NCBI RefSeq assembly: GCF_012274265.1
Contig: NZ_JAANYY010000004.1
Coordinates: 310,001 to 374,000 of the forward strand
DNA: 64,000 nt
Direction of reading: 5' to 3'
DNA from: Sphingopyxis microcysteis
GTDB lineage: Bacteria > Pseudomonadota > Alphaproteobacteria > Sphingomonadales > Sphingomonadaceae
This document shows, in pieces, positions 6,732 through 64,000 of this stretch. The position numbers and the translations under genes were made by a program. The stretch's first letter is position 1, and each line of letters begins with the position of its first letter. The notes beneath the pieces are model-generated. The model had not been told where the DNA came from, made no database searches, and worked only from the letters and a program-made list of their open reading frames with translations.

Positions 6732-9055
6732 ATGGGCTGGGCATTGGTGGCGGCCGGTGAGCCGCATCATCGCAAGGGGTGGGTCAAGCGGTTCGATCCG
6801 CCGTATTGGACGGTCGATTTTGCGCGGCCGATGATGGCGAGCGTGACCAATCCGGCGCCGCGGGCGCTGCGCGTCGAGGCGGTTTTTTATCGCAAGCAGG
6901 ATCTGGCAGGGCTGATCTGGGAGAGCGCGGATCGCTGGGATCATCCGCTGCTTGCCTATGAGACGAAGCGCGATTTTCGGCGCACGCGGCTGAAATTCCG
7001 CTGGCGGTCGGATGGGGTCAAGCCGCTCGATGCACTGCACGGGCCGACGCTGACGATCGAGGGGCGCGACGCGGCGGGGAGCCCGCGCGCCTGGTATGTG
7101 CGGCTGTGGAATTATGCCGTGGGCAGCGCCGAGGATGCGGTCGTCACGCTCGATTTCGGTGCGCTGGATGGCGGGTTCCTGCTGCCCGGCGAGGCCGATA
7201 CGGTGTGGGCGGGCGACGTGGACCGGATGTTCATCTCGCTGGTGACGCCGACTTACGACGGCGGCGAGGGTGCGCTGGCGGCGCCGGTCGAGGGCTGGGC
7301 CGAGATGACCGATATTGTTTGTTCCGGGTCGGGGTCGGTGCTGGCGATTGGCGATGCGGTGCTGCCCGAAACGGCGCTCGGCATGACCAATGGTTATGAC
7401 GATTGCTATCACCTGACCCCGGCGCGGGTCGTGCGGCAGATTGTGCAACTGGGGTACCGCGGCGACGTCGTCCATTATGTCGGGATGAGCCATTATATGC
7501 GGCTCGAGGCGCTGGGCGGCGGTTTTTATGTCAGCCTGGCCGGCGGGGTGCTCAACCGACCGACCGCCGAATGGCACCGCGCGCTGGCGGCAGCGTGCGC
7601 GGCGGCGGGGCTGGGGCTGATCTGGTCGCTGTCTTACGAACTGTTCGACGCTTATTGCTGGAACGACTGGAAACAGCGGGGTGCCGATGGCGCGCCTGCG
7701 CTGACCGGCTGGGTGCCGCCGTCGACCTTGCTGTCGCCCGCCAATGCGGCGGCGATGGGATATTTGCAGCTGGTCGCGCGGGCGTTTGTCGCGATCGGGC
7801 GCGACGCCGGATTGCCGCCGAAGTTTCAGGTCGGCGAGCCATGGTGGTGGGTCAATCCGGGCGGCAAGCTGTGCGGTTATGATGGCGCGACGAATGCCGC
7901 GCTGGGATCAGCGAGCGTGGCGATTGCCGATGTGCGCGGGCCGCTCGATGCGGCGCAGCGCGCGATGCTCGATGCCTTGGGGGCGTTGCTTGCGACCTCG
8001 ACCGCGGCGCTGGTCGCGGCGGCGCGTCACGAGGCAGGGCGGCGGGGCTGGATTCGCTGCTGCTGGTGTTCCTGCCGACGGTGCTCGATCCGGCGGCGCC
8101 CGAATTGCGGCGGGCGAATGTGCCGCCGGGGTGGGCCCGGCCCGCCTTCGATGTCTTGCAACTGGAAGATTATGACTGGGTGACCGCGGGGCGCGGCGCC
8201 GAGACGGTGCCGGCGCGCGCGGCGATGGTGCAGCGGCTCGGCTATCCGGTTCACGAACAACATTATTTTTCGGGCTTCGTGCTGAACGCGGAGGACCGCG
8301 GCCAGTGGCGGGCGATTGCCGATGCCGCCGATGCGGCGCGGCGCGCGGGAGTGGCGCGGACATTCGTGTGGGCGCTGCCGCAGGTCGCGCGCGACGGCTT
8401 TGTGGCGTTTGACGGGGAGGATGCGGTGCAGGCTTTCGATGCGGTGGATTTCCCGCTGGCGATCGGGCGCGAGGCGATGGTCGCGACCGAATTTTCGACC
8501 CAGATCGTGAGTTCGCCGTCGGGGCATGAGCAGCGCGCGAGCGAATGGGCCGAGGCGCGGATGCGGTACGACGCGGGGCCGGGGCTAAGGTCCGAGGCCG
8601 ATGTGCGGACGCTGGCGGAATTTTTCCGGGCGCGGCGCGGGGCGGCCCGGGGGTTCCGCTTTCGCGATCCGTTCGATGCGAGTTCGGCGGCGGATGGGGG
8701 CTTGCCGGCGGCGGGGGATCAGATGCTGGGGACGGGTGACGGGGTGCGGCGGCAGTTTGCGCTGGTGAAACGCTATGGTGCTGGGGATGCCGAGCAGGTG
8801 CGGACGATCCGGCTGCCGGTGGCGGGCAGCGTGCGGGTGTCGGTCGATGGGATCGAGACGGCGGCGTTTGTGGTGACCGGCGACGGCGAGGTGTTGCTTG
8901 ACGCCGCACCCGCGGTCGGGGTGGCGGTGCGCGCGGGGTTTCGCTTCGACGTGCCGGTGCGTTTTGCCGAGGATCGGCTGGAAGCGAGCCGCGCGACCTT
9001 TTTGGCGGGCGAGATCGCCAGCGTGCCGCTGGTCGAGGTACGCGCGCCGTGGTGA
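6732..9055 (+). pseudogene. GTA distal tail protein: TIM-barrel-like N-domain plus DUF2460 (gp12-like), frameshifted
   Basis: The first ~430 residues (MGWALVAAGEPHHRKGWVKR onward) include a TIM-barrel-like region with RQIVQLGYRGDVVHYVGMSH, the LIWSLSYELFDAYCW segment and KFQVGEPWWWVNPGG, similar to what have been called non-contractile tail sheath proteins. Up to about 8035 the frame is 0. From about 8042 the natural continuation (AGLDSLLLVFLPTVLDPAAP) is in frame 2, leading into the DUF2460 distal-tail domain (FSTQIVSSPSGHEQRASEWA, ARMRYDAGPGLRSEADVRTL, then RGFRFRDPFD). One missing G in the G-rich stretch 8037-8046 would explain this. ATG 6732 is chosen for its AAGGCGG ribosome binding site; ATG 6705 lies in a hairpin. 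Confidence 0.8.
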
Positions 9056-57135: not shown

Positions 57136-57213
57136 CGTCATCCCGGCGAAGGCCGGGATCTCGCCGGTGCGGTTCGACGATAAGGTGAGATCCCGGCCTT
57201 CGCCGGGATGACG
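57136..57213. repeat. Palindromic repeat (CGTCATCCCGGCGAAGGCCG family)
   Basis: CGTCATCCCGGCGAAGGCCG-GGATCTC and GAGATCCCGGCCTTCGCCGG-GATGACG. Confidence 0.92.
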
Positions 57214-57248
57214 GAAGATGAGAGGTCGGGAACGACCGAAGTCGGCAG

Positions 57249-57333
57249 TTCCCCGGCGAAAGCCGGGGTCCAGAGCGGCCATCACGCAATGTTTGTTTTC
57301 AACGCCCTGGGCCCCGGCTTTCGCCGGGGAACA
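57249..57333. repeat. Variant palindromic repeat (TTCCCCGGCGAAAGCCGGGG)
   Basis: TTCCCCGGCGAAAGCCGGGG-TCCAGAG and CCCCGGCTTTCGCCGGGGAA arms, immediately after the previous element and close to the stop of the beta-propeller gene. Confidence 0.85.
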
Positions 57334-57379: not shown

Positions 57380-58330
57380 TCAGGGCGCGATCGCCAGCCC
57401 GTCGCCCTGCTTCCCCGCCGCGATCCGGCGCAGCACCTTGCCGCTCGCCACATCGACCTCGGCGACCTTGTCGACCCCCGTCTCGGCGGCATAGAGCCGC
57501 TTCGAATCGGCGCTGAACAGCAAGGTTACCTGCCGCGCCGCGTCGCCCTCCGACACCTGGATCGTCCGCACCGGCGCGCGCGTTTCGGCGTCGAACAGGC
57601 TGATCGTCCCCTTGCCGATGTTGCTCGTCGCGATCAGCCTGCCGTCGGGGCTGGCCAGCACCCGGATCGCGACCGGATCGACCGGCAGCTCGGCAACCTT
57701 CTCACCGGTCGCCACATCCCACACCGTCACCCGCGGCGCATCGAGATCGCCGACCCACAGCTCGCGCCCGCCCTTTGCCAGCGCCAGCCCCTCGGGCTTG
57801 CCGCCGATCACCAGATCGCGCAGCTTCGTCCCGGCATTCAGGTCGAGCACGCTCACCGTCCCCGACCCGATATTGGCGGTATAGGCGGTGCGGTTGTCGG
57901 GCGCGACGACGACCATATGCGTCCCCTTCTGCCCGGTCGAAATTGACGTCACCGTCCCATCAGGCGCGACCACCGCCACCGACTCGCTGCCCTCGGTCGT
58001 CGCGACCAGCCGCCCGTCGGCGAGCCACAGCAGCCCGTGCGGCCGCTGGTTCGGGCTGAGGTCGATCGTCTTCAGCTTGCGCCGCGCCGCAACATCGAAC
58101 ACGTCGATCGTCGTCCCGCCATAAGCGACCACCGCCGCTTGGCTGCCGTCGGGCGACACCGCGATCTCGTGCGGCATCTTGCCCGTCGGCAGCCGCGCCA
58201 GCTCCGCGCCCGACGCCAGCGCCACCAGGCTCAGCGTATCTTCGCCCTTGTTGCCGATCAGCAAGGTTTCGGCGGCGACGGGCCCCGCCAGCAGCAGGGC
58301 GGCAAGGGCGGTGGCAATCGTGCGGCGCAT
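57380..58330 (-). CDS. Exported YVTN-family beta-propeller protein
   Basis: A 316-residue protein with a signal peptide (MRRTIATALAALLLAGPVAA, cut before ETLLIG) and YVTN/NHL-type propeller repeats, for example LPTGKMPHEIAVSPDGSQAA and LRDLVIGGKPEGLALAKGGR, with VRVLASPDGRLIATSNIGKG. The last repeat includes VTLLFSADSKRLYAAETGVD. Such secreted propellers often accompany PQQ-dependent enzymes or peptide systems and act as binding scaffolds; function is unknown. ATG 58330 is preferred over the longer frame. It is divergent from the 48-residue peptide gene, separated by 164 bases. Confidence 0.85.
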   Translation of the reverse strand: MRRTIATALAALLLAGPVAAETLLIGNKGEDTLSLVALASGAELARLPTGKMPHEIAVSPDGSQAAVVAYGGTTIDVFDVAARRKLKTIDLSPNQRPHGLLWLADGRLVATTEGSESVAVVAPDGTVTSISTGQKGTHMVVVAPDNRTAYTANIGSGTVSVLDLNAGTKLRDLVIGGKPEGLALAKGGRELWVGDLDAPRVTVWDVATGEKVAELPVDPVAIRVLASPDGRLIATSNIGKGTISLFDAETRAPVRTIQVSEGDAARQVTLLFSADSKRLYAAETGVDKVAEVDVASGKVLRRIAAGKQGDGLAIAP

Positions 58331-58494
58331 GGCAAATCTCCCGGTTCGTTTCCGCCATCCTATGCCGCCGTCGCGCGCGGGCAAGCCGCCTTCGACCAGC
58401 GACATTACGACAAGTTAACTGGCGCACGGGGCGCGGCTTCCTAACCCTGCACCCCGGCGGCAGGTCGCGCCGCCGGTCACCACAGGAGAAACAT

Positions 58495-58641
58495 ATGGGT
58501 CTGCCAGCCATCGACATCGACGCGCTGCCCTTGCTCGACACCGCGGTCGGGTTGTTCGGCTCGCTCGTCAGCGAAAGCGCCTCGTCGGGGCCGTCGGTGT
58601 TCGAGATCGCGGTCACCATCGCGCTGATCATCCACGACTGA
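58495..58641 (+). CDS. 48-residue peptide gene, candidate precursor peptide
   Basis: A short gene with a strong ribosome binding site (ACAGGAGAAACAT, 8 bases from the ATG). The product begins MGLPAIDIDALPLLDTAVGL then FGSLVSESASSGPSVFEIAV and ends TIALIIHD: acidic, no Cys, no Met beyond the first, no signal peptide, hydrophobic centre. It is followed 70 bases downstream by two genes with cupin-like plus HEAT-like domains on the same strand. It resembles ribosomal-peptide precursor genes in size and context, but no modification site can be pointed out. No function is claimed. Confidence 0.65.
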   Translation: MGLPAIDIDALPLLDTAVGLFGSLVSESASSGPSVFEIAVTIALIIHD

Positions 58642-58711
58642 CGAAGCGGCGGGAAGGGGCAGCGGGGCGCCGCCCGTCCTTTCCCGCGCATCGCCCTTTG
58701 CTCCAGCCAAG

Positions 58712-59824
58712 ATGCCCGCCCGCGCCTCGCGCCACGATCACTTCCCCCGCGCCGACCTCGCGCGCCGCACCGCGATCCGCTGCGCGGTGAGCGAACTCGC
58801 CGCCGCATGGACCGCGATCGACACCGCCCCCGACGGCCTGCTCGCCGCCATCGATGCGCAGGCGGACGCCCCCGCCGACGCCGCGATCGCCGCGCTGCTC
58901 CCGTGGCTCACCGATCCAGACTGGCTCGCCGCCCGCCTCGCCAGCGCGCTCGCGCTGCTGCGCGCAGACCCCTTCGCGCGCCCGCCGCTCCGTGCCTTCG
59001 GGGGCGGCGAGAGCGGCGCCCCAGGTGGCCTCGTGCTCGCCGATCGCGGCGGCATCCGCCTGACCCTCCGCCTGTGGCCTGCCGCGGCGCGCCCGGCGCC
59101 GCCCGCCGCGCCCGCGATCTTCGTCCCCGGCCGCGCCGCGCTTCACATCCTCGTCAGCGGCGGTGCGCAGCTCTGCGAGCACCGCGTCGCGGTCACCCCC
59201 GCCGAGGAAGTCGGCGCCTTCACCGCGCGCGCCGCCGCGCCCTGCCACACCACCGCGCCGCGCCCGCTGCACCGCGGCGAGACGCTCCACCTCGACACCG
59301 CGCGGCAAAGCTTCTCGCTCATCCCCGGCGGCCGCGACACGCTTTTCCTCGAACTCACCGTCCAGCCGCCGTCGCGCCTGCCGATCCGCAGCTACGACCC
59401 CGCCACCGGCCGCCTCCTCCACGTCAGCGCGTCCCGCCGCGACAGCAGCTTTCGCGCCATGGCGCTGACCCTGCTCCGCCACCTTGGCCGCGCCGACGCC
59501 GCGCCGCTGTTCGACGCCGAAACCCACAGCAGCGATTTCGCCGCGCGCTGGCACGCGATGCGCGAACTGATCGCGCTAGCCCCCGCTGCCGCCCGCGCTC
59601 CGCTCACCCGCATGGCGGCGCACGACCCCCACCCGGAGGTGCGCGCCGCTGCAGAAGCCACGCTGGCGCTCTTATCTCCCTTACCGCTTGCGGGAGGGGG
59701 TGTCACGAGGCACGTGACTCGTGACACGGGAGGGCCTGTTACTCCCAACGCGGCGGAACATGCCCCACCCAAACCCTCCCCCAAGGGGGAGGGCTTAAAG
59801 GAAGCCCCATGCCCCGCGCCATAA
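58712..59824 (+). CDS. Cupin-like/HEAT-like protein of unknown function (first)
   Basis: A 370-residue protein. Residues about 90-230 are beta-rich and resemble a degenerate cupin (FVPGRAALHILVSGGAQLCE, HRVAVTPAEEVGAF, SLIPGGRDTLFLELTVQPPS). Residues about 250-320 are helical with a HEAT-like pair (MALTLLRHLGRADAAPLFD, AHDPHPEVRAAAEATLALL). The C-terminal 50 residues come from a palindromic repeat (TRHVTRDTGGPVTPNAAEHA). It overlaps the second such gene by 16 bases, so they are coupled. The second paralogue keeps the HxH metal-site pattern that this one lacks, so this one may be a binding or regulatory subunit. Confidence 0.7.
   Translation: MPARASRHDHFPRADLARRTAIRCAVSELAAAWTAIDTAPDGLLAAIDAQADAPADAAIAALLPWLTDPDWLAARLASALALLRADPFARPPLRAFGGGESGAPGGLVLADRGGIRLTLRLWPAAARPAPPAAPAIFVPGRAALHILVSGGAQLCEHRVAVTPAEEVGAFTARAAAPCHTTAPRPLHRGETLHLDTARQSFSLIPGGRDTLFLELTVQPPSRLPIRSYDPATGRLLHVSASRRDSSFRAMALTLLRHLGRADAAPLFDAETHSSDFAARWHAMRELIALAPAAARAPLTRMAAHDPHPEVRAAAEATLALLSPLPLAGGGVTRHVTRDTGGPVTPNAAEHAPPKPSPKGEGLKEAPCPAP
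59674..59798. repeat. Composite palindromic repeat inside the first cupin/HEAT gene
   Basis: CCCTTACCGCTTGCGGGAGG opens it and CCCTCCCCCAAGGGGGAGGG closes it; in between lies GTCACGAG-GCACGTGA-CTCGTGAC, a perfect 8-bp stem at 59702-59725. The element is translated as the tail of the host gene. Confidence 0.8.
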
Positions 59825-60711
59825 CCCCGCCCCCCGGCCCCCCGCTCACCCTGACCGAAGTCACCGCCACCCTCGACCAGCACGGCGTCGACCTCGCCGA
59901 CGAAGCCAGCATCGCGCGCTGCGCTACCCTCCTCGCGGGGCTGCAACGCAACCGCGCGTTCCTCGCCGACCGCGTCATCGCCGCGCTGAAGGCCAGCTAC
60001 GCCGACCAACTCGAAATCAACCGCTATTCGGCGCAGGTCTTCCTCCTCCACCGCAGCCCGCGCGGTTTCTACCTCCGCGCCAACCTCTGGCCCGCCGCAG
60101 GCGACGCCGTCACCACCGCGAGCGGCCCCGCGGCCTTCTCCTACGGCGTCGCGCACGACCATAATTTCAGCTTTCTCACCGTCGGCTATTTCGGTCCCGG
60201 CTATGTCAGCGACTATTATGAAGTTGATCCGGAAACGGTCGACGGGCGCCGCGGCGAACCGCTGGCCCTCAAATTCGTCGAGCGTAGCCAGCTAAGCGAA
60301 GGCAAAATGATGCTCTACCGCGCCCACCGCGACATCCACCGCCAGCTCCCGCCCGAAAGCCTGTCGGTCAGCCTCAACATCATGGACGAGGGCGACCATG
60401 TCCCCTGGCGCGACCAATATATCGTCGATCTCGGCCGGCAAGCGCAGGGACGCGGCACGATCGCCAAACGCCCGACGCTGACGAGCAGCGAAATGCTACT
60501 GCGCTGCGCGGTGCACCTCAGCGACGACGCCCACGACATCGCCGCCCACTTCGCCAAGGCGCACCCCGTCCCCCGCGTCCGCGCCAACGCGATCGCCGCG
60601 CTCGCAGCGGTGGCGGAGGAGGGCGAGGGCAGGGCGGCGGTGCTGGAACGCGGGCTGCGCGATGCGGACGCGCGGGTGCGGGATGATTGTCGGCGGTGGC
60701 TGGCAGAATGA
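59809..60711 (+). CDS. Cysteine dioxygenase-like cupin/HEAT-like protein (second)
   Basis: A 300-residue protein with a cupin region reminiscent of cysteine dioxygenases: the HxH metal site in YGVAHDHNFSFLTVGYFGPG, then YVSDYYEVDPETV, MMLYRAHRDIHRQLPPESLS (a third His) and VSLNIMDEGDHVPWRDQYIV. It ends with a HEAT-like helical pair (VRANAIAALAAVAEEGEGRA and LRDADARVRDDCRRWLA). It is a plausible non-heme iron oxygenase-like enzyme whose HEAT part could hold a peptide or protein substrate. It overlaps the upstream paralogue and follows the 48-residue peptide gene, and the three may form one system. Confidence 0.7.
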   Translation: MPRAITPPPGPPLTLTEVTATLDQHGVDLADEASIARCATLLAGLQRNRAFLADRVIAALKASYADQLEINRYSAQVFLLHRSPRGFYLRANLWPAAGDAVTTASGPAAFSYGVAHDHNFSFLTVGYFGPGYVSDYYEVDPETVDGRRGEPLALKFVERSQLSEGKMMLYRAHRDIHRQLPPESLSVSLNIMDEGDHVPWRDQYIVDLGRQAQGRGTIAKRPTLTSSEMLLRCAVHLSDDAHDIAAHFAKAHPVPRVRANAIAALAAVAEEGEGRAAVLERGLRDADARVRDDCRRWLAE

Positions 60712-60808: not shown

Positions 60809-63800
60809 TTACCCCGCCTCGTCGTTCGCCAACCGCGATGCCGGGATCAGCGGCCCGTCGCACACGCGCTTCAGCAGGTCGGCCTGCGCCGGTTCCAGCT
60901 CGACGAGCAACCCCAGCACGTTCAGCACGTTAATCAACTCGCTTGTATATTCGCTCAGCCAATGGTCGGGCTGAATATCGCCCAGCGGCGACGGCTTGCG
61001 GCGGTCGCCGATCTGCGGCCGCTCGCGGTCCTTCTTGCGGTAACTGAACCACTGGCGCAGCACCTGCTTGCCCGACACTTCATAGGCCCAGACGGCGGGC
61101 GGCACATGGTCGATAAAGCCGGTGCCGATTTTCAGCTGCTGCAATTCGGGATCATAATCGATGCTGTCGGGAAAACCCTCGGGTGTCGCGGGAATCGCGC
61201 CATCCTTTGGGATCGTCGGGCGGCGCCCCTCGGGCATGCGCGGCGGTCCCGCCGGGTGCCCGTCGGCAAAACGCTCGCCGAAACTGTGCAGCCATATCAC
61301 CTCGCGCCCCAGCTTGGCCGCCTCGGCGAACAGCGCCGCATCGGCGGTCAGCGGCACGCGCAGGCCGGGGCGTACCAGATCATCGCGGAAGGTTTCGACA
61401 TAGGCCGGGTGCGCGAGCAGCGCCGCGACATAGGCAAAGACATCGACCGGATCGACCGGCGCGCCGTGGGCTCGCGCGAGTTCGGCAAGTATGTCCGGCG
61501 CGATATTGGCGTCGGTCGCGGCGGCGTCTTTCCAGAGGGCGAAGACGCGGCCGCCGAAAGAACCGCGATAATGACTGAGGTCTGGAATAAGCGACGTGAA
61601 AGAGAGTCCGGGACCGCCCGTGGGACTGTGGGACATTAATGCCGTGAGATAAACTTGGCTGCTGCTATGGTTCTTCCAAATACTTGGATTAGGCTGATTG
61701 ATGAGCCGCGCGTCAGGAATCATGAACTGTCGATCAAACGAGCGATAGCCGATCAAAATCGGGGTTACCAAATGCGGAATTTCGCCTCGTGCGATCATTG
61801 CGCCGATTGCTTCCGTCGGCTCTTGGTGCGGCGCTAATCCACTGGCAGGCTTGTCGATATGGCGATCACCGGCGAGACCGTTTCGCAAATGCGGATGGAA
61901 CAAGTCGCGCCGTTTTTCAGCGTTCGGCTCTCGCACCAATTTATCCCACCGGTTATATAGAGAAGCGGCGTCTGGTGCGATGATCCAAGTCCGACCGGGC
62001 ATGACGCCCGAACCACAGTCTCCGATGATGGAGTCTAACGGAACCATATCTGCCCATCCGCCAGAAAATTCCGGAAGAAACGGAGCTCGCCAACCTTTTG
62101 CTCCAGAATCCCATCCAACTGAATCGAGGGTTATGCGAGATAGTTCAGCGAACTTTTCGTCGCGAGATCCCTTGCCCAAGGCACGATATTTCACACTTGC
62201 TGGAACGTCAGAGCAGTTTGCAGGAGAGCGAGAAGCCAGAACGATGCAAACAGGTTGCTGAACGTCTTGGAAAATGCGCGTTGCCACTTCCGGCTGATGG
62301 CCTTCCGGCGAGCAATCCACTACCCAGATTTCGTCGCACTTGCTCCGCAAGTCGGACCGCATCATCTGAAAACCGGGGCCGTTCAGGAAACCGGCCGTAG
62401 TAATGTAGCACACGATCCCCGACAGATGCTCCTCGACCGGCGGCTGCAGGTCGCGACCGCCCGCGCCTTGTTCGAACACCTTCCACGCCGCCCAGCGCCA
62501 GAAATAGATATAGAGGTTGCGTAAATGCTTGGCGTGCGCGCCGACACCCCACGCGGCGGGGGGCTGCCAGTCGTTCAGCGGCGCGGCGCGGTTGCCCGAC
62601 CCGCTTTCGACCCAGCTGCCCTTGCCCTTGGCCTTTTCCTTATATGGCGGATTGCCGATCACCACCGTGATCGGCTGCGACCGCTTGATCTCGTTCGCTT
62701 CGCGCCGCGACCGCGACAATTCGCGATAAATGCCGGTGCCGCTTTCGAACTCGGCGTGCGGATCGCCCAGCGTGTCGGTTACGAACAGCCGCGGGCTGCC
62801 CGCCGCACCATATTCGATCATCTCGGCCAGCATCCGCAATTGCGCGACGGCAAAGGCACCGAATTGCAGCTCGAATCCGATCAGCCTTTGCGCGATCGCG
62901 GTCATCGCCGGGCCAACCGCGCCCGCGCCTTGATCGTTCTCGATCGTCGCCGCAATCTGGCGCATCACGCCCAGCAGGAATGTGCCCGATCCCATCGCCG
63001 GATCGGCGACATGCACTTCGGGTCCGGCCAACCCCTGCGGCACCGCAAAGCGTGCCGACGATTTTAGTGCCTCGTCGCACAATCGCACCATCGTCTGCAC
63101 GACCTCGGGTGGGGTGTAATAACTTCCCGTCTTCTTGCGCAGGCTGTTGTCGTAAACCTCCAGAAAATGCTCATAGAAATAGAGCCAGGCCTCGGGATCG
63201 CCCTTGGACACCTTCGACCAGTCAACCACGTCCAGCACGCGCAGCATCGTGTCGAGCGAGGTGACCAGCACCGGCCCCTGCTGGTCGGTGAGCAGGCGCA
63301 GCGCGACGCCGATCAGCGTGTTGGTTTCGCCCAGTTCGCGCGCAACATCAGCAAAACCTTCGGATAGTTTCAGCCCGCGCGATTTCGCCATCAACAGCCC
63401 GAACGTCACCGCCTGTGCATAGCCGTCGGCGAATTGCTCGTCGTTCGCTTCGGGGAACAACAGCCCGCGCCAATCGTCGCGCAGCTCGATCAGCGGCTGG
63501 CTGCCCCGCTCCATCTGTTCGATGACTTCGTCGCGCAGAAAGCGGCTGAGCCGCGCGGCGATGGCGGCGAGCTGGCGCGCATTGCGCGGCGCGATCGGTT
63601 CCCACGTCAGGAAATCGTGAACCAGCGTCAGCAGGCTTGCGGGTGCCTCGACCGCGCCGCCGTCGCTTTCAATATCGCCGGTCAATCGGACGACACCGCC
63701 TTGCAGCTCGCCGTCACGCCACAGCGAAAAACCATTGCCGTCGGTATAGATCAGGTTCGGCAGTGCCTTCAGCCGGTCCCACTGCGCCTTGTCATGCTTG

Positions 63801-64000
63801 TCCTTGAACTTGCGCGGGTCGGCGCCCTTGCCAGGTGCCTTGACTTCGACAAAGCCGATCAGCGCATTGTTCACCGTGACCGCATAGTCGGGCCGGGTTT
63901 TCAGGTCGGCGAGCGATGATTCACCGACCATGTGCATTTTCGCGGCGGGTGCGGCTTCGGCGGCAAGCGCAGTGAACAGGGTTTCGAGCGGTGCGCGCAG
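60809..64000 (-). CDS. Nuclease-methyltransferase restriction enzyme (type ISP/IIG-like), 5' end outside the window
   Basis: At least 1060 residues are visible; the frame stays open to the right edge. Near its N-terminus it has a PD-(D/E)xK nuclease pattern (RPDYAVTVNNALIGFVEVKA, catalytic D and E-x-K), then helical coupling segments, then an N6-adenine methyltransferase with motif I VADPAMGSGTFLLGVMRQIA and motif IV VVIGNPPYKEK, preceded by KTGSYYTPPEVVQTMVRLCD. The C-terminal third is a target-recognition region (ILIGYRSFDRQFMIPDARLI and following). No helicase motifs lie between nuclease and methyltransferase, unlike classical type ISP enzymes. It should cut and methylate DNA as a single polypeptide. 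Confidence 0.85.
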   Translation of the reverse strand: MRAPLETLFTALAAEAAPAAKMHMVGESSLADLKTRPDYAVTVNNALIGFVEVKAPGKGADPRKFKDKHDKAQWDRLKALPNLIYTDGNGFSLWRDGELQGGVVRLTGDIESDGGAVEAPASLLTLVHDFLTWEPIAPRNARQLAAIAARLSRFLRDEVIEQMERGSQPLIELRDDWRGLLFPEANDEQFADGYAQAVTFGLLMAKSRGLKLSEGFADVARELGETNTLIGVALRLLTDQQGPVLVTSLDTMLRVLDVVDWSKVSKGDPEAWLYFYEHFLEVYDNSLRKKTGSYYTPPEVVQTMVRLCDEALKSSARFAVPQGLAGPEVHVADPAMGSGTFLLGVMRQIAATIENDQGAGAVGPAMTAIAQRLIGFELQFGAFAVAQLRMLAEMIEYGAAGSPRLFVTDTLGDPHAEFESGTGIYRELSRSRREANEIKRSQPITVVIGNPPYKEKAKGKGSWVESGSGNRAAPLNDWQPPAAWGVGAHAKHLRNLYIYFWRWAAWKVFEQGAGGRDLQPPVEEHLSGIVCYITTAGFLNGPGFQMMRSDLRSKCDEIWVVDCSPEGHQPEVATRIFQDVQQPVCIVLASRSPANCSDVPASVKYRALGKGSRDEKFAELSRITLDSVGWDSGAKGWRAPFLPEFSGGWADMVPLDSIIGDCGSGVMPGRTWIIAPDAASLYNRWDKLVREPNAEKRRDLFHPHLRNGLAGDRHIDKPASGLAPHQEPTEAIGAMIARGEIPHLVTPILIGYRSFDRQFMIPDARLINQPNPSIWKNHSSSQVYLTALMSHSPTGGPGLSFTSLIPDLSHYRGSFGGRVFALWKDAAATDANIAPDILAELARAHGAPVDPVDVFAYVAALLAHPAYVETFRDDLVRPGLRVPLTADAALFAEAAKLGREVIWLHSFGERFADGHPAGPPRMPEGRRPTIPKDGAIPATPEGFPDSIDYDPELQQLKIGTGFIDHVPPAVWAYEVSGKQVLRQWFSYRKKDRERPQIGDRRKPSPLGDIQPDHWLSEYTSELINVLNVLGLLVELEPAQADLLKRVCDGPLIPASRLANDEAG

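Follow-up and report, generated by a model that had tools for sequence, protein, structure and literature searches.

A conserved 48-residue peptide gene linked to a pair of predicted thiol-dioxygenase-fold/HEAT proteins in Sphingopyxis: a candidate peptide-maturation system

The Ser-His-Tyr (SHY) motif of thiol dioxygenases is defined in the relevant part of PMC10966181 and, in the portion of PMC8503633 concerned with it, 3-mercaptopropionate dioxygenase (MDO, 3MDO) uses a different Arg from the Arg60 of cysteine dioxygenase (CDO). ADO and PCO, as presented in the corresponding parts of PMC8503633 and PMC10966181, are protein-level enzymes that lack SHY. Among pathways for ribosomally synthesised and post-translationally modified peptides (RiPPs), the pbs cluster, as outlined in the pertinent portion of PMC12257519, encodes a cupin-like hydroxylase, PbsQ, and an MNIO, PbsC, with a partner protein, PbsD. 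Here we describe a locus in a 64,000-nucleotide stretch of Sphingopyxis microcysteis DNA (contig NZ_JAANYY010000004.1, positions 310,001 to 374,000; the whole stretch is referred to as the window), in which a gene for a 48-residue peptide precedes two overlapping genes for proteins A and B, both predicted to combine a cupin fold with HEAT-like helices. The evidence suggests that this is probably a RiPP-like peptide-maturation system, consisting of a precursor and the A/B pair, in which B would oxidise the tail of the peptide; the terms precursor and modified are used here as readings of sequence data. The features of the locus, in window coordinates, are:

58484-58489, + strand: Shine-Dalgarno sequence AGGAGA of the peptide gene, 5 nt before the ATG
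58495-58641, + strand: peptide gene, 48 amino acids, putative precursor (open reading frame, pN/pS and profile)
Within the peptide: conserved N-terminal residues 1-22; linker, residues 23-33; Val/Ile-rich tail, residues 34-48
58712-59824, + strand: protein A gene, 370 amino acids, predicted degenerate CDO-like cupin with C-terminal HEAT repeats
59809-60711, + strand: protein B gene, 300 amino acids, predicted thiol-dioxygenase-fold cupin with HEAT-like helices
57380-58405 (57380-58330 with a later start), - strand: YVTN/YncE-like beta-propeller, predicted to be secreted, divergent neighbour

Peptide, A, B and propeller all lie where the original prediction, made from the letters of the window, had placed them, and AGGAGA is the near-consensus ribosome binding site that it had reported. 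Genes A and B share 16 nt and run on the same strand as the peptide gene. Overlap between A and B recurs in 150 of the 180 loci where both ends are placeable, which hints at coupled translation.

The 48-codon peptide gene is real, as its sequence is under coding constraint. The ratio of nonsynonymous to synonymous polymorphism (pN/pS), calculated from 21 Sphingopyxis copies (only the 48-residue peptides from loci L001-L030), is 0.33 in frame compared with 0.97, 3.09, 0.68, 0.61 and 3.16 in the other five frames, and by part of the peptide it is 0.24 for residues 2-22, 0.44 for residues 23-33 and 0.40 for residues 34-48. Purine-rich sites are also observed by eye 5' of those relatives' peptide genes that were inspected. 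The window peptide, MGLPAIDIDALPLLDTAVGLFGSLVSESASSGPSVFEIAVTIALIIHD, has no Pfam or NCBIfam match and a single copy was found in the window genome; an NCBIfam scan of seven relatives' peptides gave only three chance-level matches, all for one peptide. In an alignment of 128 peptides the N-terminal half, with the consensus ..LP.IDI..LP.LDT..GLFGS, is better conserved than the tail, Leu of LP.L and Gly of GS each being conserved at 95%, values that are partly circular as the peptides were chosen by profile. The tail differs strongly between lineages whereas the N-terminal motif stays. It is short, usually Val/Ile-rich and often flanked by acidic residues, the Val/Ile fraction being 0.46 in the best 11-residue tail stretch, a figure biased upward by the selection of that stretch, versus 0.15 in residues 2-22 (131 unique peptides). 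GG-x-x-Cys tails occur in several lineages, Gly-Gly precedes the tail in a few precursors, and two loci from outside the class have tails made up of runs such as AVAIGVAVGVGVAVGLGVGIAV. Any Cys is present in 18 of the 131 unique peptides and none has Cys at position 2. Two precursor-like reading frames (L209, oriented 6756-6956, and L230:7793-8008) contain long alternating Gly/Val runs followed by Pro/Gly-rich ends.

The peptide gene is linked to A and B across the loci collected. Of the 184 loci that have both A and B, 174 yield a short peptide upstream of A with an iterated profile (E <= 1), and in 171 the match reaches E <= 1e-6; these counts are of loci rather than genomes, are partly redundant and include several loci from one genome. 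Because the iterated profile was trained on the same loci that were counted, a separate held-out profile was built from 66 peptides with <70% identity to any test peptide, 10 of 76 having been removed as >=70% identical to one; it detects the peptide in 41 of 44 test loci as opposed to 0 of 440 control windows (E <= 1e-3). Both the conservation of the peptide, in coding constraint and in profile matches across loci, and its co-occurrence with the two cupin/HEAT genes are thus in agreement with the original prediction of a peptide system. Besides the 184 with A and B, the 201 loci in total include 16 that have B alone and one (L039) with neither at the cut-off. Eleven of the B-only loci are at contig ends, two (L038, L040) are remnants, two (L078/L084) possess a weaker A, and that of L087, also weak, is visible in the longer L216. 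The ten A and B loci without a profile peptide include L079/L083 and L080/L082, which have divergent peptides by eye, and L004, in which tblastn finds the peptide; the remainder are L030, L123, L135, L139 and L175.

A survey of 148 related genomes gave a similar picture, with B in 63 and the peptide in 55: both are present in 54, a number that includes degenerate copies such as those of G013 and G019, the peptide only in one, which is 77% complete, B only in nine and neither in 84. Five of the nine B-only genomes have a divergent short peptide before A, two have B remnants and two have B near a contig end. Copies are degenerate in G010, G013 and G033 and B contains a gap in G019, indicating that the set has been lost again in some species. 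Three Sphingopyxis genomes retain B remnants only, accompanied in one case by a partial peptide, and in a fourth genome B is interrupted by an internal gap (L037-L040). In L004, from one Sphingopyxis genome, the peptide lies directly before an A that lacks its N-terminal half, an apparent loss in place.

No cupin family is matched by the sequence of A or B (Pfam, E <= 1), and the cupin reading of both proteins therefore comes from structure models. In the AlphaFold model of B, with a mean predicted local distance difference test score (pLDDT) of 93.9, residues 8-225 resemble cysteine and mercaptopropionate dioxygenases (best match 4tlf, Z 13.1, 161 residues, 3.3 A, 20% identity), and PCO and ADO are also structural neighbours (Z 10.9-12.5). 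Sequence-only searches gave no useful link of B to solved structures. B matches neither CDO_I (PF05995) nor PF07847 in Pfam (E <= 1), its matches there being to HEAT only and below cut-off, and nothing in the window genome matches CDO_I or PCO_ADO. B carries H116-D117-H118, the HxH site that had been predicted to persist in one of the two proteins; H116 and H118 are conserved in 61 of 61 aligned proteins and H177 in 60 of 61. In a profile alignment with seven CDO-like proteins, which is weak (E 0.006, probability 6%), these three residues fall on the three CDO iron ligands. The predicted structure is consistent with retention of the three-histidine metal site of the cysteine-dioxygenase fold, the metal itself being predicted. 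In the same weak alignment, of which only the motif-anchored part is trustworthy, SLNIM of B aligns with SLHIY of CDOs, a mapping by which Ser-His-Tyr is replaced by S188-N190-M192; position 190 is N in 59 and T in 2 of the 61 proteins, and position 192 is Tyr in none of the 61. The equivalent of CDO Arg60, position 75 in a motif-anchored reading, is Pro in 34, Ala in 17 and otherwise some other residue than Arg (60 of the 61 rows shown). Thus, as far as these alignments indicate, B seems to lack both the Ser-His-Tyr motif and CDO Arg60.

A is modelled by AlphaFold as a cupin (pLDDT 88.6); CDO-like structures are its best matches (Z of at most 10.6, root-mean-square deviation 3.7-4.6 A), tied with other cupins. 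HEAT_2 is matched above the Pfam cut-off in A (E 1.3e-7), the sole such match in the two proteins, and the A sequence matches designed HEAT-like repeat proteins among solved structures, as expected of HEAT. The combination of a cupin-like fold with HEAT-like helices, proposed previously for both proteins, is therefore upheld by the models and, for A, by Pfam. A has no conserved metal ligands and, again as predicted, no conserved counterpart of the HxH of B; its invariant residues, R279, W280 and R284, are located in the HEAT part. A comparison of their profiles with hhalign spans 239 columns (E 4e-8), on the basis of which A and B are taken as paralogues. The C-terminal tail of A (59660-59824) has a pLDDT of about 50 and spans small palindromes, as though the gene had been extended by a repeat element.

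The proposed mechanism begins with the 48-residue peptide as a precursor, the N-terminal half of which would act as a recognition leader and the Val/Ile-rich tail as the part acted on. The paralogues A and B would probably form a heteromeric complex in which A, its metal site lost, may hold the leader with its HEAT helices, and B may use O2 and a predicted iron bound at the three-histidine site to oxidise the tail at one residue or several. For some operons outside Sphingopyxis, MacB/HlyD, full ABC or C39-type transporters could export the product; in Sphingopyxis itself, an exporter and any protease would be elsewhere or absent. The reaction is probably not plain thiol dioxygenation, which is unlikely in most species since most precursors are devoid of Cys and B lacks the small-thiol residues tested. 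A more specific version, in which a heteromer of an active and a dead CDO-fold/HEAT protein oxidises non-cysteine residues of Val/Ile-rich tails, a thiol-oxidising iron fold thereby having become a peptide C-H or backbone oxidase, and so defines a new RiPP class that is widespread in Sphingomonadaceae and occurs on gammaproteobacterial plasmids too, is tentative and we consider it possible rather than probable.

Gene neighbourhoods in some relatives include transporters. On the Alteromonas plasmid pASTE61-200 the order is Yip1, HlyD, ABC ATPase, MacB permease, two small open reading frames, A, B, ABC ATPase and ABC2 permease, all in one direction and with ribosome-binding-like sites before the two small frames. 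L089, which belongs to the family of the window, contains two A-B pairs and three small peptides followed by HlyD, ATPase, FtsX, MacB and ABC transporter genes, the transporter frames overlapping or adjoining. FtsX/MacB and ABC2 transporter genes are present in L209, L230 and L231, the last with an adaptor gene in addition; in L229, HlyD, ATPase and MacB permease genes follow downstream at about 2-6 kb, in L235 a gap of 32 bases separates B from a full ABC transporter that follows it, and an ABC ATPase is encoded downstream in L210. Upstream, L217 has a C39-peptidase ABC transporter, on the opposite strand, and L215, by eye, a resistance-nodulation-division (RND) pump. MacB/FtsX/HlyD queries (E <= 1e-8) match only L089/L248, L209, L218 and L229-L231 among the loci collected. 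In L234, peptide-A-B is preceded by TIGR04511, TIGR04510 and TIGR04511, which NCBI names peptide maturation dehydrogenase (TIGR04511, SagB-related) and peptide modification system cyclase (TIGR04510); L233, from the same genus, is alike in having a close TIGR04511 homologue (tblastn and reading). A Cupin_8/JmjC-like gene is found upstream in L237. The likeness to peptide-modifying pathways that the original prediction had pointed out is reinforced by the transporter operons and SagB-related genes found next to some relatives. Uncharacterised proteins of 284 (L232:9717-10571) and 268 (L210:9543-10349) residues, without a Pfam match, are encoded after B in two loci.

Several observations weigh against peptide maturation. 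Of the 17 loci outside the family with enough flank, 10 have no ABC exporter (L211, L212, L214, L215, L219, L232-L234, L236, L237). The other 7 (L209, L210, L218, L229, L230, L231, L235) carry ABC transporter genes at a distance of up to about 8 kb, as do the in-family L089 and L217; the 17 are not independent samples and there is no random-gene baseline for them. In the main family the locus is found in several settings resembling housekeeping, and no ABC, MacB or HlyD exporter, protease or other modifying gene was recognised near main-lineage loci, about 20 of which, syntenic with one another, have by eye an AI-2E-type permease downstream. Likewise, no exporter or leader protease was recognised near the window locus, and the C39 peptidase family is without a match in the window genome, for which double-glycine (C39) export was rejected. 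Within Sphingopyxis the tail is conserved too, which suits a structural role as well. Candidate peptides of the distant loci L211, L212 and L233-L236 have no clear Val/Ile tail, the peptide was chosen by eye in other distant loci, that of L231 is on the opposite strand, and no peptide is recognisable upstream of A in L219, on a Vibrio plasmid, or in L237.

In the strongest rival, the peptide is an unmodified microprotein, a small structural or regulatory subunit that binds A/B, for instance contributing a strand or capping the active site, and the substrate that B oxidises is a free small molecule, a thiol for example. This would agree with the single peptide copy in the window genome and the conservation of both its ends in Sphingopyxis, with the lack of recognised ABC, MacB or HlyD exporters in the housekeeping contexts, and with a fold of B that is that of small-thiol dioxygenases. 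B, however, lacks the Ser-His-Tyr motif and an equivalent of CDO Arg60, the tail varies strongly between lineages around a constant N-terminal motif, and tandem distinct peptides before one A-B pair, transporters and SagB-type genes fit a product better than a subunit. A small-subunit role is on balance unlikely, while still deserving consideration.

A further alternative is an unmodified bacteriocin-like or signal peptide exported by an ABC transporter, with A/B as chaperone, immunity protein or sensor. Hydrophobic Gly/Val tails, Gly-Gly before the tail in a few precursors and the MacB, ABC2 and C39 transporters near some loci are in its favour, but most loci have no such transporters, the window genome is without a C39 match, and the conserved metal ligands predicted in B argue for catalysis; we give this explanation only a small chance. 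A housekeeping oxygen or redox sensor, in which B would oxidise a protein or peptide as a signal in the way plant PCO and human ADO act on an N-terminal cysteine, draws on the ADO/PCO structural neighbours and on the absence of SHY that B shares with them (PMC8503633, in the part concerned), but is very improbable given the scarcity of Cys in the peptides, with none at position 2, and a patchy distribution with remnants within Sphingopyxis that speaks against an essential sensor.

The original prediction had grouped the propeller with peptide, A and B. The peptide-A-B part of that set stands and the membership of the propeller does not. Among loci of 9 kb or more, the propeller is close by in 17 of 27 from Sphingopyxis and in 0 of 96 others, a comparison in which L153 and L156, without a genus name, fall in neither group, both carrying a propeller (L153 in part), L031-L034 and L036 also fall in neither, none having one, and L132, among the ten Sphingopyxis loci scored propeller-less, has a 143-residue piece. 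It is also intact in two genomes in which B is a remnant. The propeller is thus excluded, being absent from all 96 loci outside the genus and kept in genomes with only a remnant of B. With translation starting at 58330, its N-terminus is signal-like by eye. Beyond it, upstream, are cysG-like and lysA genes, and two REP-like palindromes with 30-nt arms (57136-57213 and 57248-57332) are located between the cysG-like gene and the propeller. Directly after B, and convergent with it, is a type ISP restriction-modification gene (60809-63937, - strand; Type_ISP_C and N6_Mtase in Pfam). A promoter and terminator scan of the locus gave nothing informative.

In genome samples that partly overlap (e.g. 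G750, G585, G1018), the B profile matches 143 of 396 genomes of the order, all from a single family and spread over 30 of 84 genera; of 398 genomes from the phylum it matches 14, two of which lie outside that family. In other orders it matches 5 of 200 and 2 of 197 genomes, in one outside family 12 of 197 and in one class 2 of 229. Among named genomes one pattern led to 386 stretches, 382 of which encode relatives; the best 80 of the 386 are from Sphingopyxis, Sphingomonas, Erythrobacter, Sphingosinicella and other Sphingomonadales. Plasmid copies were detected in Alteromonas stellipolaris (42% identity over 84%) and Vibrio sp. ED002 (26% identity over 56%), and no viral copy was confirmed. 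On the Vibrio plasmid (L219:7231-8787) two genes are in A-B order, only B matching a profile; the pair adjoins restriction-modification and transposon genes, and a 59-residue Cys-containing reading frame overlaps the end of B.

Compared with CDO and 3-mercaptopropionate dioxygenase, residues 8-225 of B have the predicted fold in common, and the HxH and the distal His align, with a weak score. Unlike these enzymes, B has no CDO_I match, S188-N190-M192 in place of Ser-His-Tyr and mostly Pro or Ala at the Arg60 position, and it is fused to HEAT-like helices and paired with a degenerate paralogue and a peptide. ADO and PCO (PF07847) have Asp where B has Asn, according to the parts of PMC8503633 and PMC10966181 that deal with this residue, and differ further in that B has no PF07847 match and most partner peptides are Cys-free; their substrates carry an N-terminal Cys, whereas none of the 131 unique peptides has Cys after Met1, a test that assumes the peptide to be the substrate. 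The pbs cluster, in the account given in that portion of PMC12257519, is similar in its short precursors, metal oxygenases with a partner protein and transporter gene, but PbsQ is JmjC-related and PbsC is an MNIO, unlike the thiol-dioxygenase-fold/HEAT pair described here. The putative peptide modification system of NCBI (TIGR04510/TIGR04511) is directly upstream of peptide-A-B in L234, with a dehydrogenase homologue in L233; TIGR04511 homologues were found by tblastn in the loci of no other genome (L224 and L225 being from the same two genomes), TIGR04510 was not searched for elsewhere, and the L234 peptide, unlike these neighbours, matches no NCBIfam model. As in RiPP pathways, a short putative precursor with a conserved N-terminal, leader-like region and a more variable candidate core is present. 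Its gene is linked to that of B, a candidate modifying enzyme that would act on the peptide. No description of a thiol-dioxygenase-fold/HEAT pair in peptide pathways was found among the matches listed in the open-licence literature, and the locus offers a concrete candidate for such a peptide-modifying enzyme type. If B does modify the peptide, this would add a new polypeptide reaction to the repertoire of the thiol-dioxygenase fold, and a family of small genes that matches nothing in Pfam or NCBIfam could be located through its neighbours. RiPP-type pathways are already known; the A/B enzyme pair would be new to them.

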